7,177 bases of DNA from Thermoproteota archaeon (GTDB taxonomy: Archaea > Korarchaeota > Korarchaeia > B14-G2). The notes under the pieces were generated by a model, which saw only the letters and a program-made list of their open reading frames with translations, had not been told where the DNA came from and searched no databases. Positions within the stretch are counted from its first letter, which is position 1, and the number at the start of each line of letters is the position of its first letter. The stretch is taken from positions 1-7,177 of the forward strand of contig QMWA01000089.1 of the NCBI GenBank assembly GCA_003661385.1, read 5' to 3'. Both the position numbers and the translations under genes were made by a program. Shown here piece after piece: positions 2,543 through 7,177 of this stretch.

Positions 2543-3340
2543 CTATGGGAGGCCACTTGGCAGCTCAGCTCCCTCAGCTGTAGGCCTACCACCCTCCTTT
2601 GGGAAGTAGAGCTCAAGCAGCTTCTCAAGCGTGTCCGCAGCCTCCTCGTATCTGCCTTCCTCTATGGCCTTCTCCAGGTAGTCTAGTATCTCCTCTGGTA
2701 TCTTGCCCTCCAGCTGCTTTAACATCTCCTCTAGGGCTGCTTTAGCCATCTTCTCAGCTCTCTTCGCGTGGACATGTGATGAGACGTATTCTCTGCTGGC
2801 GTAGTAGTTTTCAGCTGAGCTGAGCTCCATTTTGGCTCCTGTCAGCTGTGTTGTGTCAGGGAACACGCCAGCATCCTGCATTGCCTTCGCTGCCCTCTCA
2901 GCTGCGTTGACTGCCTCCCTAGCCCTGCTGAGCTGCTTACCTGCTGTCTTGGGGCCTATCCTCCTGCTCAGGTGCTCCTTCAGGTAATCTCTTAGGATGC
3001 GGGCTTCAGTCGGGATCTGCTCGAGCTCTGATGGAGAGGTCTCCTCTCCCCTCGCAGCCCTCCTCTTGAGCTCGCTCAGCATGTACCTGAGCCTGTTCAG
3101 CCTCTGAACTGCCTCACGTGGCAGGGACCTGAAGAACTCCCTGTAGACGCTGGCGTACTCCTCGGTCTCAGCGACCTCCCTCTCAGCTATCTCAAGGTAC
3201 TGCTCAGCCCATGTCTTCTGCTCTACCTGAGGCTGTGTGGCCTCAGGCTGCGTGACAGCTGGCTCAGCTGGCCTTAGAGAGAAGGCTAGGAGAAGTGTTA
3301 TAAGAGTGAGCACAGAGGAGACTATCATCTGAAGCCTCAA
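2543..3340 (-). CDS. Secreted or membrane-anchored alpha-helical protein, unknown function
   Basis: The protein has 265 residues from a TTG at 3340, or 261 from the ATG at 3328; the latter has GAGG 6 nt before it, the former a weaker AGGT and a positively charged MRLQ n-region. The hydrophobic segment MIVSSVLTLITLLLAFSL (5-22) is a signal peptide or anchor, placing the rest outside the membrane. A short Pro/Thr/Gln-rich linker (23-42) precedes mostly charged helices with coiled-coil character (44-130). The region 139-208 has alternating Ala/Glu/Lys helices with a pattern such as SSAENYYASREYVSSHVHAK, similar to extracytoplasmic helical-repeat proteins of the DUF4398 kind, but no firm match is claimed. 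Two further helices (214-244) look TPR-like (EKAIEEGRYEEAADTLEKLL). It is the head of the minus-strand string and is divergent from the MoxR operon, so it may be a substrate or partner of that system. Confidence 0.8.
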   Translation of the reverse strand: MRLQMIVSSVLTLITLLLAFSLRPAEPAVTQPEATQPQVEQKTWAEQYLEIAEREVAETEEYASVYREFFRSLPREAVQRLNRLRYMLSELKRRAARGEETSPSELEQIPTEARILRDYLKEHLSRRIGPKTAGKQLSRAREAVNAAERAAKAMQDAGVFPDTTQLTGAKMELSSAENYYASREYVSSHVHAKRAEKMAKAALEEMLKQLEGKIPEEILDYLEKAIEEGRYEEAADTLEKLLELYFPKEGGRPTAEGAELPSGLP

Positions 3341-3364
3341 GCTGACCTAGGTGCCAGGCTGTGA

Positions 3365-3382
3365 TCTAGGATAAAAGGGTTT
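3365..3382. promoter_or_regulatory. Candidate TATA element in the divergent intergenic gap
   Basis: The 50 bp between the two gene strings is mostly mixed-sequence, with one AT-rich core, ATAAAAG at 3371-3377. Read on the minus strand it is CTTTTAT, about 34 bp before the TTG start and about 46 bp before the ATG at 3328. That would give a short leader of roughly 8 or 20 nt, so it suits the minus-strand gene best. On the plus strand it lies only about 17 bp before the ATG at 3391, closer than the usual 22-27 bp to a start site. Either the plus operon uses a start just inside the annotated gene, or its promoter differs. The call is from spacing and composition only. Confidence 0.4.
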
Positions 3383-3390
3383 AGGGGAGT

Positions 3391-4179
3391 ATGGTGAGGA
3401 GGCTGATAGCTGCTACAGCAGCCCTGTGCGCTGCCATGCTTTCCTGTAGGCTTACGTGGCCTGCTACAGCAGCTCCAGCGTTTATAGCGACCCTAACGCT
3501 GTACTATGCCACTGTGGCCTTCAGCCCATCCTCAGCTGCAGCTGTCACCTCAGCTTTCTGCCTTGGGGGGCTTCTCTCTTCAATCGGCTCCAGCCTAGGG
3601 CCTCTCGAGGCCTCTACGCTGGTTCCTGTCTTCTCAAGCTTCTACCCAGTTCAAGCTGTCAGGTACTATCGGGGGGTTGAGTGGAGGGAGGCTTCTCCCA
3701 TAGGCTTCCTCCTGCTGTCTACTGGAGCTCTGACTCTCGCCTTCACTACGCCTGAGAGCGATAGGAGCATTGAGGTGGCAGGGAGGTGGCTTCTGCTGGC
3801 GCTGAGCCAGCTTCTTGGGGTTGTGGCTGGGAGCTGGATGGCTTCACGCCAGCCTAGAGAGGCTGAGGCTGAGGACGTGTGGAGGATTGGAGAGCTGAGA
3901 GACGCTGAGAGGATGCTTGCCCTAGGAGACTACAGGTCAGCTTTAATGACTGCATGTGGCATAATCGAGTGGGCTCTAAGGACGAGGATGGGGCTTCCAG
4001 ATGGGATGCTGACTGAGGACATTGCTAGAGCAGCTGAGGAAGCTGGTGTGGATTGCAGGAAGGCCTTAGCCGCCCGGGATAGGGTGCTCTACCTTGGGGG
4101 AGGCGTAGACAGGGATGAAGCTGAGCAGGCTGTGTACGCTGCCAGAGAGCTCTTGAGGAGGGTTGGGAGATGGAAGTAG
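3391..4179 (+). CDS. Multi-pass membrane protein with C-terminal HEPN-like helical domain (MoxR operon head)
   Basis: This 262-residue protein has two parts. Residues 1-152 hold four clear hydrophobic segments (about 27-44, 47-66, 102-119, 129-150) plus a weaker one at 4-19, suggesting four or five membrane passes. Residues 165-262 are a soluble helical domain: a helix with ERMLALGDYRSALMTACGII (173-192), EWALRTRMG, then AARDRVLYLGGG (227-238) and a last helix EAEQAVYAARELLRRV (243-258). That order, including an R-x-R-V-x-x-G-G turn before the final helix, resembles HEPN or DUF4145-type domains, but the HEPN catalytic His position is Tyr234, so nuclease activity is not expected. A GTG at 3394 is an alternative start (GGAG at 3386-3389). 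The gene overlaps MoxR by 10 bp. Many MoxR operons carry a DUF4129 membrane protein; this may be its functional equivalent. Gene existence is firm; the domain assignment is tentative. Confidence 0.8.
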   Translation: MVRRLIAATAALCAAMLSCRLTWPATAAPAFIATLTLYYATVAFSPSSAAAVTSAFCLGGLLSSIGSSLGPLEASTLVPVFSSFYPVQAVRYYRGVEWREASPIGFLLLSTGALTLAFTTPESDRSIEVAGRWLLLALSQLLGVVAGSWMASRQPREAEAEDVWRIGELRDAERMLALGDYRSALMTACGIIEWALRTRMGLPDGMLTEDIARAAEEAGVDCRKALAARDRVLYLGGGVDRDEAEQAVYAARELLRRVGRWK

Positions 4180-5198
4180 ACTTATCTGAGCTAGGTGAGA
4201 GGATCCTGACAGCTGTGGAGAGGAGGATAGTTGGGATGAGGGACATAGTTGAGAAGGTCTTGGTCTCGCTGCTGTGCGGAGGCCATGTGCTGCTTGAGGG
4301 GGTTCCAGGGCTTGCTAAGACCATGCTAGCTAGGACCATCGCAGACTGCATCCAGGGGGTGGAGTTCAGGAGGATCCAGTTCACACCAGACTTGCTGCCA
4401 GCAGACATAGTTGGAAGTGAGGTGTACAACTTTGAGAAGCACAGGTTTGAGGTGAGGTTTGGGCCTGTCTTCACGAACCTGCTTCTGGCAGATGAGGTCA
4501 ACAGGGCTCCGCCGAAGACCCAGTCGGCGCTCCTTGAGTGCATGCAGGAGAAGCAGGTCACAATCGGGGGGAGGACCTTCAGGCTTGAGGAGCCGTTCAT
4601 GGTGATAGCTACACAAAACCCCCTTGAGATGGAGGGCGTATACCCCCTTCCTGAAGCTCAGGTTGACAGGTTCCTCATGAAGCTAGTCTTCACCTACCCG
4701 AGCTTCGAGGAGGAAGAGGAGATAGTGTCAAGGTACATGTCTGGGCTTGAGATCAGCGTTGAGCCTGTGGCAACCAGGGAAGAGGTGCTGAAGGCTCAAG
4801 CTGAAGTCGGTAAGGTGCTTGTCCCAAGGCTGGTCAAGAGATACGCTATACTGCTGGGTAGAGCTACTAGGCCAGGAGAGGAGCACACCCCACAAGCTGT
4901 CAGGAAGTATGTGAGGTGGGGTGTCAGCCCTAGAGCCATCCTGTTCCTGGTGAGGTGCAGCATGGCCTTAGCTGCTCTGAGAGGGAGAGGCTATGTGCTG
5001 CCAGAGGATGTGAGGTACATGGTGTACGATGTCTTCAGGCATAGGGTGATACTGACACCTGAAGCTGAGCTTGAAGGGGTTAGAGTTGAGGATGTGATAG
5101 CTGAGGTCGTTGAGCACACCCCAGCACCATCCCTATCTGAGGTCAGGGAGGATGTAGCTGCGTACTATGAGACTGGTGTGAGGTTTGAGCGAAGCTGA
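4170..5198 (+). CDS. MoxR-family AAA+ ATPase
   Basis: This 342-residue protein is a complete MoxR-type AAA+ ATPase. It carries Walker A GVPGLAKT (44-51), Walker B LLLADEVNR (104-112) followed by the family-typical APPKTQSALLECMQE (113-127), the sensor 1 motif ATQNP (147-151), the PEAQVDRF arginine-finger region (161-168) and a sensor 2 region GVSPRA (251-256). The C-terminal helical lid (from about 200) includes EEHTPQAVRKYVRWGVSPRA. MoxR proteins use ATP hydrolysis to remodel or load metals/cofactors into partner proteins, often through VWA (metal-ion-dependent adhesion site, MIDAS) proteins, and this gene is followed directly by DUF58 and VWA genes. The ATG at 4170 has GGAGGGT (4157-4163) 6 nt upstream. 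It overlaps the previous gene by 10 bp and the next by 14 bp. The client proteins are unknown. Confidence 0.95.
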   Translation: MEVDLSELGERILTAVERRIVGMRDIVEKVLVSLLCGGHVLLEGVPGLAKTMLARTIADCIQGVEFRRIQFTPDLLPADIVGSEVYNFEKHRFEVRFGPVFTNLLLADEVNRAPPKTQSALLECMQEKQVTIGGRTFRLEEPFMVIATQNPLEMEGVYPLPEAQVDRFLMKLVFTYPSFEEEEEIVSRYMSGLEISVEPVATREEVLKAQAEVGKVLVPRLVKRYAILLGRATRPGEEHTPQAVRKYVRWGVSPRAILFLVRCSMALAALRGRGYVLPEDVRYMVYDVFRHRVILTPEAELEGVRVEDVIAEVVEHTPAPSLSEVREDVAAYYETGVRFERS

Positions 5199-6072
5199 CC
5201 CCTGCAGGAAGCTATCAGAGCTTGAGAGGAGGGTTAAGGTAAGGGTGAGGTTCGCGCTATCAGGTGAGAAGGCCAGCAGGTTTAGGGGGCTTGGCACAGA
5301 GTTCTATGGGCACAAGAAGTACGAGTACGGGGATGACAGCAGGCACATAGACTGGGCTGCATCCCTCAGGACTGGAGCTCTGACCAAGGCTGAGCTCCAG
5401 GTCAAGACATTCGCTCAGGAGGTGGGGGTGCCCTGCTTCATAGTGCTGGATGCAAGCAGGTCCATGGGGTATGAGGCTGGGAAGAGGAGGCTTAGCATAC
5501 TGGCAGCTGCTACAGTAGCTTACTTCGCAGCCCAGATGAGGGATAACATCACCCTGGTGCTGGTCTCAGAGAAGACGAGGGTGGTGTCAGCTTCAGGGAG
5601 GAGGGGGGTGTATAGGGTTCTCAGAGAGGTCTGTAGCTGCAGGTTTGACGGCGAGGTCACGGCTGAGATGGTTCTCAGAGCTGTTAGAGCAGCAGTGAAG
5701 AGGAGGGGGCACACCTACATGATATCAGACTTCATCTTCAGAGACCTAGAGAAGCTGCATGCAGTCGTGGAGTACATCAGGAGCCTCGGGGGAAGCTACC
5801 TTACGCTAGTGCAGGTGCTGGAGAAGTGGGAGGAGGAGCTTCCCGAGGTCGGGTATGTGGCTCTAGCTGACCCAGAGACCGGTGAGGTCTCTGTCGTAGA
5901 TGCCTCAAGTAGGCGGGCTAGAGAAAGGCTGAGAGAAGCCATCTCAACGGTGCAGAGGAGCTTGGAGAGCATGAGAGCAGCAGGCTGCTCCTACATCAGG
6001 TTCCTTGGGGAGGGCAGTGTAGAAGAACTTATACTGGACTACCTCATGGCTAGGAGGTGGCTGTCAAAGTGA
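5185..6072 (+). CDS. DUF58 domain protein with degenerate VWA-like fold
   Basis: This 295-residue protein is the typical partner of MoxR in this operon type; no enzymatic activity is known for the family. The characteristic DUF58 block GDDSRHIDWAASLRTGALT (49-67) is present, followed by a VWA-like half with IVLDASRSM (86-94), the D-x-S-x-S MIDAS motif at 89-93, and an ISDF motif (about 174-180) near the expected second metal-site position. No transmembrane helix is obvious, so it is probably cytoplasmic. The start is a TTG at 5185, the first possible start after the in-frame TGA at 5179-5181, with GGTG 6 nt upstream. It overlaps MoxR by 14 bp and ends in a GTGA overlap with the VWA gene. By analogy it should work with the ATPase and membrane VWA protein in an assembly or maturation role. 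Confidence 0.92.
   Translation: MSEADPCRKLSELERRVKVRVRFALSGEKASRFRGLGTEFYGHKKYEYGDDSRHIDWAASLRTGALTKAELQVKTFAQEVGVPCFIVLDASRSMGYEAGKRRLSILAAATVAYFAAQMRDNITLVLVSEKTRVVSASGRRGVYRVLREVCSCRFDGEVTAEMVLRAVRAAVKRRGHTYMISDFIFRDLEKLHAVVEYIRSLGGSYLTLVQVLEKWEEELPEVGYVALADPETGEVSVVDASSRRARERLREAISTVQRSLESMRAAGCSYIRFLGEGSVEELILDYLMARRWLSK
6052..6059 (+). promoter_or_regulatory. Ribosome binding site for the VWA gene
   Basis: AGGAGGTG within the DUF58 coding end precedes GTG 6069 by 9 nt. The earlier GTG at 6057 is inside this motif. Together with the GTGA overlap this decides the start. Confidence 0.6.
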
Positions 6073-7016
6073 TATTTAAGCAGCCTCTGTTCCTTTATGC
6101 TGCCCCCTTAGCTTCAGCTGCTTTGGTGGGCCTGGGGCTCTGGGGCAGGAGGAGGAGAGAAGCCTACTACTTTGCCCCAGCTAAGCTGCTTCAGACAGCA
6201 GCTAAGGGGGGTGCTGGGCGTAGAGCCAGGTCCATCCTCACCCTTGTCCTCCCTGCTGTCCTGATGGCTCTCGTGATGGCTGCTCTAGCTCAGCCTGTTG
6301 AGCAGACTAGAGTCATGAGGAAGGCTGTCGTAGGCGTCCTAGTCGTTGATGTAAGCGGCTCAATGGAGTGTAGGGACATGGGGGTTGGGAGGAGCAGAAT
6401 AGAGGCTGTTAAGGACGCAGTCAGAGACCTGGTGACCTCCCTTAGGCCTGGGATGTTCAGGATCGGCGTCATCGCGTTCAGCGGGCTCCCTTACCCTGTG
6501 TGCCCGCTGACATCTGACCCTCAGCAGATAGTTTCCTCCGTTGAGAGGCTAGGCACAGTGTGGTCTGGGACAAACATAGGCGACGCTCTCGACGCAGCTG
6601 TAACTTGGCTTAAGGGAGCTCAGGTTGAAGCATGCTTCATAGTGCTGATAACAGATGGAGGCTGGAATGTTGGAGCAGACCCCATAGTAGTTGCCTCTAG
6701 GATACATGAGGAGATGCCTAGGCTTAGAGTGTACACCATAGGGATAGGGACGACAGGGGGGATTGTGAGGGGGAGGAGCATAGAGCCACCTGACATGATG
6801 CTCCTCTCAGCCATAGCTGAGAGGACAGGGGGGAGGGTTTACTCAGCGAACACATACCATGAGCTTAAGAGCGTGCTTACAGAGGAGATCCCAGCTGACA
6901 TGGGCGTCTGGGATGTAGATGAGAGAAACCTGTACTACTTCTTCCTAGCGCCAGTTCCAGCTCTGCTAGCAGCTTACCTGCTGCTCGTTGAGTGGAGGTT
7001 CAAGGTGCTTCCCTAG
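6069..7016 (+). CDS. BatA-like membrane VWA-domain protein
   Basis: This is a 315-residue protein from the GTG at 6069, which forms a GTGA overlap with the DUF58 stop. The GTG at 6057 lies inside the SD AGGAGGTG (6052-6059) and is less likely; the preferred GTG is 9 nt beyond that SD. Two N-terminal membrane helices are seen (about 7-25 and 55-73), with a basic GRRRR loop between, then a VWA domain with complete MIDAS residues: DVSGS (94-98), the SGTNIGDAL threonine (T168) and LITDGG (D196). A third membrane helix (about 289-307) precedes a short basic end. This is the BatA/aerotolerance layout, with the VWA domain facing the cytoplasm or outside depending on topology, probably cytoplasmic by comparison with BatA. 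It is the likely metal-dependent partner of MoxR and DUF58. No BatB-like second VWA gene follows immediately. Confidence 0.92.
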   Translation: MIFKQPLFLYAAPLASAALVGLGLWGRRRREAYYFAPAKLLQTAAKGGAGRRARSILTLVLPAVLMALVMAALAQPVEQTRVMRKAVVGVLVVDVSGSMECRDMGVGRSRIEAVKDAVRDLVTSLRPGMFRIGVIAFSGLPYPVCPLTSDPQQIVSSVERLGTVWSGTNIGDALDAAVTWLKGAQVEACFIVLITDGGWNVGADPIVVASRIHEEMPRLRVYTIGIGTTGGIVRGRSIEPPDMMLLSAIAERTGGRVYSANTYHELKSVLTEEIPADMGVWDVDERNLYYFFLAPVPALLAAYLLLVEWRFKVLP

Positions 7017-7177
7017 GTGCCAGCCTTGTACACGGTGTATGTGTCTGCCCACAGCTACAGGAGGGCGTTCGAAAGGTGGAGGGTCATTGGAGTCAGCAGG
7101 TTTCTGAGAGTGCTCAAGAACGTGCTCAAGCAGGGGGTTGTTGTAGCAGATCAAGGTAGACACATCTGGATAAGGCA
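7017..7177 (+). CDS. Start of an unrecognised gene continuing the MoxR operon (cut by the window end)
   Basis: An open frame starts at the GTG at 7017, directly after the VWA stop, and runs off the end with 53 residues. The other two plus-strand frames each meet a stop in this stretch. AGGTG (7003-7007) lies 9 nt before the GTG, the same spacing as in the VWA gene. The visible part begins MPALYTVYVSAHSYRR and contains a basic, aromatic segment (FERWRVIGVSRFLRV) followed by a hydrophobic VVVADQ. No family is recognised from this fragment. Its position suggests a further operon partner of the MoxR system, but a frame from the minus strand cannot be ruled out fully. Confidence 0.5.
   Translation, partial: MPALYTVYVSAHSYRRAFERWRVIGVSRFLRVLKNVLKQGVVVADQGRHIWIR

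Follow-up and report, generated by a model that had tools for sequence, protein, structure and literature searches.

MoxR AAA+ ATPases and the VWA proteins that partner them occur widely; little is known of what directs them to their place of action at the membrane. MoxR operons as such are known, and so are membrane HEPN domains (PMC3710099). The RNase site of HEPN domains requires the histidine of the Rx4-6H motif or a second conserved histidine, and families of the AF0298 type, which are without the motif histidine, keep another histidine upstream (PMC3710099). Reference proteins of the HEPN-T / PF05168 group are AF0298 (PDB 2hsb), TM0613 (1o3u) and ST0689 (1wol). The protein described here resembles this group in its predicted fold, its length and the arginine of the motif, and it carries a tyrosine at the histidine position as do many archaeal members. 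In contrast to them, it is without the alternative histidine, the region of helices 2 and 3 is shortened, and the domain is fused to a multi-pass membrane part and sits in a MoxR operon. Bacterial membrane-associated HEPN groups also combine HEPN domains, predicted to be cytoplasmic, with TM helices, but these are single- or two-TM proteins outside of MoxR operons and potential RNA processors (Anantharaman et al. 2013, PMC3710099). The nearest clear HEPNs are membrane proteins of the same genome or phylum (C66/L122, L119, L137, L138) with 24-27% domain identity; they differ in having the HEPN domain first, two TM helices behind it and an intact RNxCLH motif, and the stretches that were read showed no MoxR operon. 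BatD-like proteins share with the target the location of a membrane protein beside MoxR, DUF58 and VWA genes and a HEPN-like tail, probably on the cytoplasmic side. They differ by a BatD-type ectodomain, one or two TM helices, a distantly related tail and a usual position downstream of the VWA gene. Archaeal DUF4129 proteins (256-287 aa) are also encoded in MoxR loci and are similar in layout, with several TM helices and a helical tail of comparable size, but a direct sequence match to the target tail was undetectable.

Operon layout and membrane part

The window, i.e. the whole analysed stretch of 7,177 nucleotides, is a complete contig of a genome of 1.74 Mb (206 contigs, 91% complete). The features of the locus are compiled in Table 1. 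The target ORF starts with ATG; in base-shuffled versions of its stretch the frame stayed open in 0 of 2000 cases, thus a chance ORF is unlikely. It is the first gene of a four-gene operon with overlapping ends (target/MoxR 4170-4179, MoxR/DUF58 5185-5198, DUF58/VWA 6057-6072), its last ten bases overlapping the MoxR start. The ATPase has both a Walker A (GVPGLAKT) and a Walker B motif (LLLADE), and the DVSGSM metal site is visible in the sequence of the VWA protein. The overlapping genes and the Pfam assignments to AAA_3, DUF58 and VWA_2 agree with the initial, sequence-only reading that the target heads a MoxR operon. Among named genomes, the closest MoxR was that of a Baldrarchaeota archaeon (50% identical). 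The upstream neighbour is a divergent gene on the minus strand (2543-3340), 50 bp off, and in the intergenic region an AT-rich 'ataaaa' and an 'aggggag' precede the target ATG by eye. The product of the divergent gene has a single membrane helix at its N-terminus and an extended helical region with weak TPR-like matches. Directly behind the VWA gene another ORF begins (7017-7177), which is cut by the contig end; its 53 visible residues do not resemble BatD.

Table 1 Features of the MoxR locus in the window
Feature	Coordinates	Strand	Basis
Intergenic region common to operon and divergent gene, 50 bp	3341..3390	.	sequence
Target gene (262 aa), HEPN domain C-terminal to a multi-pass membrane part	3391..4179	+	ORF, HEPN searches
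Membrane part, residues 5-152	3403..3846	+	hydropathy
C-terminal domain of the HEPN superfamily (residues 155-262) with five predicted helices	3853..4176	+	Pfam, HMM, hhalign, fold, tree
Rx4H-equivalent motif R229-D230-R231-V232-L233-Y234	4075..4092	+	alignments, column counts
MoxR-type AAA+ ATPase	4170..5198	+	PF07726 (AAA_3) 1.4e-63, AAA_lid_2 8.5e-22
Short DUF58 protein without membrane helices, VWA-like	5185..6072	+	PF01882 3.2e-32
BatA-like membrane VWA protein	6057..7016	+	VWA_2 1.7e-21; BatA 1.1e-4 (below cut-off)

Simple hydropathy revealed six hydrophobic stretches in the membrane part, the fourth one weak, and the charges are consistent with a predicted N-in/C-in topology. Four or six passes therefore fit better than five; of the four or five passes assumed at first, four is retained and five fits worse. 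The membrane part had no Pfam match above cut-off. It matched a sequence in genome G176 (E 0.005, 41% over 56 residues), in hydrophobic sequence.

The C-terminal HEPN domain

The last ~105 residues of the target are a HEPN-superfamily domain. With the full protein the Pfam match to PF05168 HEPN was weak (E 0.044); the domain alone reached E 0.0027, below the curated cut-off. At a loose threshold two weak matches within the phylum were obtained, one from the same genome (C66/L122) and one from G027 (L119), both HEPN proteins with an intact motif (RNMCLH / RNRCLH) and two C-terminal membrane helices, L122 passing the Pfam HEPN cut-off (3.5e-7). A narrow HMM of seven HEPN domains of the same genome or phylum, the target left out, was run with hmmsearch on ~650 ORFs from archaeal MoxR loci; it detected the target at 6.1e-11, with 0.005 for the next best ORF. 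Comparison of profiles with hhalign gave 97.4% over 90 columns, and <=0.3% with reversed profiles; when the HEPN side was extended to 22 domains, the result was 96.4%. None of 109 helical background segments scored above 19 with the HEPN profile, the target scored 64. The profile of the target's relatives matched 2hsb at 9e-21, while the single target domain had chance-level matches only among PDB sequences. Neither a Padloc nor an NCBIfam family matched the target. The proposed HEPN/DUF4145-type tail is thus upheld as HEPN by profile, HMM, fold and tree, with PF05168 as the Pfam match; DUF4145 (PF13643) was unlisted for the target at E<=10 and matched the relative L122 at 0.011.

An AlphaFold2 model of the tail, calculated with the domain and 22 HEPN relatives as input rows, showed five helices (pLDDT 91.4, pTM 0.84). 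In Foldseek the two best matches were the HEPN structures 1o3u and 2hsb with modest E, and HEPN structures filled nearly all of the top 30 in VIA-align. The structural matches were 2hsb (Z 11.6, rmsd 3.0, 109 aligned), 1ufb (Z 10.0) and 1wol (Z 9.9); a Z of 11-14 lies within what helical bundles can attain through their common arrangement. Because the model was fed with HEPN rows, its fold depends in part on the sequence match and has to be seen as supportive only. A fold unlike HEPN would have spoken against the assignment; the predicted one is HEPN-like, with a four-helix core and an insert helix. A viral fold search yielded nothing significant. In a tree of 45 domains the target grouped with the HEPNs (branch 100/99) and apart from the BatD tails, its place among the HEPNs of the own genome being poorly separated.

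The segment R229-D-R-V-L-Y234 aligns with RNMCLH and RNRCLH of the relatives, which puts Tyr234 at the histidine position. The arginine is conserved in 20 of the 22 aligned HEPN domains. In the histidine column of the 22 collected relatives, tyrosine occurred 14 times, histidine 6 times, threonine and arginine once each. Tyr234 is therefore common rather than odd. The target thus retains R229 of the Rx4-6H motif and has lost its histidine, the upstream histidine of the AF0298 type is absent from a region that is shortened, and the 262 residues contain no histidine at all. As the whole protein is without histidine, the known HEPN RNase chemistry appears unlikely. The domain had been described as degenerate, with Tyr234 in place of the catalytic histidine; the position and the degeneracy are borne out, tyrosine as a peculiarity is not.

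Two further HEPN loci of the genome are of note. One ORF (L142:817-1854, C192) fuses an MNT-type nucleotidyltransferase with a HEPN domain that has an intact RNRVYH motif. In the other (L143:1495-2209, C82), a PIN-like gene precedes a tandem pair of degenerate HEPN ORFs, possibly a broken or divergent toxin-antitoxin cluster.

Tails of BatD-like and DUF4129 proteins

DUF4129 (PF13559) was tried as a family for the target and dropped, with no Pfam match at E<=10 and 1.9% in hhalign against 25 archaeal and bacterial tails. Scores of the target were 41 bits with the HEPN, 4.7 with the BatD and 2.1 with the DUF4129 HMM. The layout of DUF4129 proteins, several TM helices and a tail in a MoxR locus, is also that of the target. 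With the BatD tail, hhalign gave 46% over 86 columns; the BatD ectodomain (PF13584) had no match in the target at E<=10.

The weak second-tier matches of the HEPN HMM nearly all fell on BatD-like proteins that adjoin MoxR-DUF58-VWA genes, in the tail that follows their final membrane helix. A profile of 31 BatD tails aligned to HEPN with 94/90% over 100 columns and to DUF4129 with 92-93% over 63 columns; the reversed profiles stayed below 1% (hhalign). HEPN against DUF4129 gave 85% with a wide HEPN profile and 18-54% with a narrow one. As a blind control, 103 families of these loci were compared with HEPN; among them, the BatD tail alone exceeded 50%. A model of the BatD tail, built from BatD rows only and without HEPN rows (pLDDT 86.8), had 2hsb at the top (Z 13.7, rmsd 2.9, 108 aligned), besides 2q00 (Z 12.2) and 3o10 (Z 11.5), values again within reach of helical bundles. 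By sequence the BatD-tail profile matched no solved structure. In the 394 genomes, 21 of 33 BatD-tail matches were within 5.5 kb of a DUF58 match. The BatD tails look like HEPN domains, and the weight of this statement rests on the agreement of profile and fold; DUF4129 appears to be linked to HEPN, less firmly than the BatD tails. The contrast drawn at the outset, a HEPN-like domain in the place of DUF4129, has to be divided: the target does not match DUF4129 by sequence (hhalign 2%), but the contrast becomes less sharp, as a link to HEPN is also seen for the BatD tails and, with less support, for DUF4129.

BatD-like ORFs whose tails matched HEPN in profile and fold model were obtained from L165, L163, L150, L159, L175, L181, L149 and L153. 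Also near the BatD-tail model was PDB 3mfn (Z 13.6, rmsd 2.1), the uncharacterised Dfer_2879 of Dyadobacter.

Distribution of the gene

At E 0.001 the full-length target protein was found in a single genome, its own, among 394 archaeal genomes, so that the survey of archaeal MoxR operons proposed in the sequence-only reading returned the same gene nowhere else. Conservation can therefore not support a function of the target. Among the DUF58 matches and the HEPN matches listed, the latter to ~E 8e-4, the two lay side by side only in the window, as judged by eye. About 55 MoxR loci were read completely; in these, MoxR is preceded by a gene for DUF7502, DUF4350 with a tail, a DUF4129-like protein or an unrelated one. 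Two of these were considered as counterparts and set aside: the DUF4350 tails directly before MoxR in several archaea, which seemed similar on inspection (HEPN 0.1-0.2%, DUF4129 weak at 27%), and the DUF7502 membrane proteins, a different family, which precede MoxR in L100 and L109 and have look-alikes in L102, L111 and L114. The own genome contained no match to DUF4129 (E 0.001) and none to the BatD tail (1e-4); this fits a replacement by the target without proving it. In relatives of the same class (L101, L103, L108, L110), DUF58 and MoxR are oriented in opposite directions, with a protein of 280-290 aa without clear Pfam family beside them.

Proposed role

We propose, with a probability of about 0.5, that the membrane-tethered, catalytically dead HEPN tail docks the MoxR-VWA machine and is an independent recruit, in a place taken elsewhere by HEPN-like BatD or DUF4129 tails. 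The multi-pass membrane part would anchor the HEPN-fold domain, presumably on the cytoplasmic side, and the tail, without the residues for RNA cleavage, would be a membrane docking platform contacted by MoxR and the VWA partners. In other archaeal MoxR operons HEPN-like BatD or DUF4129 tails may do the same job; the HEPN domain of the target is closer to ordinary archaeal HEPNs and was seemingly recruited on its own. The gene overlap and the position in the operon make an adaptor of the MoxR-VWA machine plausible. Against docking speaks that the association with the MoxR operon is unconserved, being observed in one genome.

The closest HEPNs of the own genome are toxin-like or membrane proteins outside of MoxR operons, and the domain may thus have retained a different role. 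It may be a nucleic-acid-binding or MNT-type dead HEPN that is merely co-transcribed, with no direct part in the MoxR machine: nucleic-acid binding has been proposed for non-catalytic HEPN domains (PMC3710099), several other HEPN genes, the MNT-HEPN fusion among them, are present in the genome, and the gene arrangement is unconserved. We consider this unlikely, since the gene overlaps MoxR on the same strand and HEPN-like tails recur on further membrane proteins encoded in MoxR operons. A strongly diverged DUF4129/BatD tail, in place of a separately recruited HEPN, seems quite improbable. Against it stand the values of 1.9% for DUF4129 and 97% for HEPN, the bit scores and the 100/99 branch in the tree; for it speak a position, size and layout as in archaeal DUF4129 proteins of 256-287 aa and the 46% with the BatD tail. 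Least probable is a membrane-bound HEPN RNase or toxin that is active, restrained by MoxR-VWA and using R229 with Tyr234 or other residues, since both the Rx4-6H histidine and the upstream one of the AF0298 type are missing and the region of the latter is shortened. For it speak the retained R229 with the following polar D230, the HEPN families with altered motif that may still cut RNA via other residues (PMC3710099) and the presumed role of membrane-bound HEPN domains in RNA processing at the membrane.

Beyond this locus, a membrane-tethered dead HEPN-fold tail may be a standard docking part of MoxR-VWA operons in general, the DUF4129 and BatD tails being unrecognised HEPN members; we put this forward tentatively, at somewhat less than an even chance. 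This possible link between HEPN, BatD and DUF4129 is the more interesting claim. In a library of open-licence papers, no work was found that links HEPN tails with MoxR, DUF58 or BatD. If one dead-HEPN fold is indeed common to these tails, MoxR-VWA would gain a concrete docking surface, two unexplained domains, DUF4129 and the BatD tail, would get a name, and an RNase fold would have been reused as structural adaptor.

A BatD-tail-like domain was also observed near the N-terminus of two proteins (L044:4139-4864 and L037:1149-1916, minus strand; hhalign 89-90%). Both are soluble, have ~250 aa and are encoded divergently beside MoxR.
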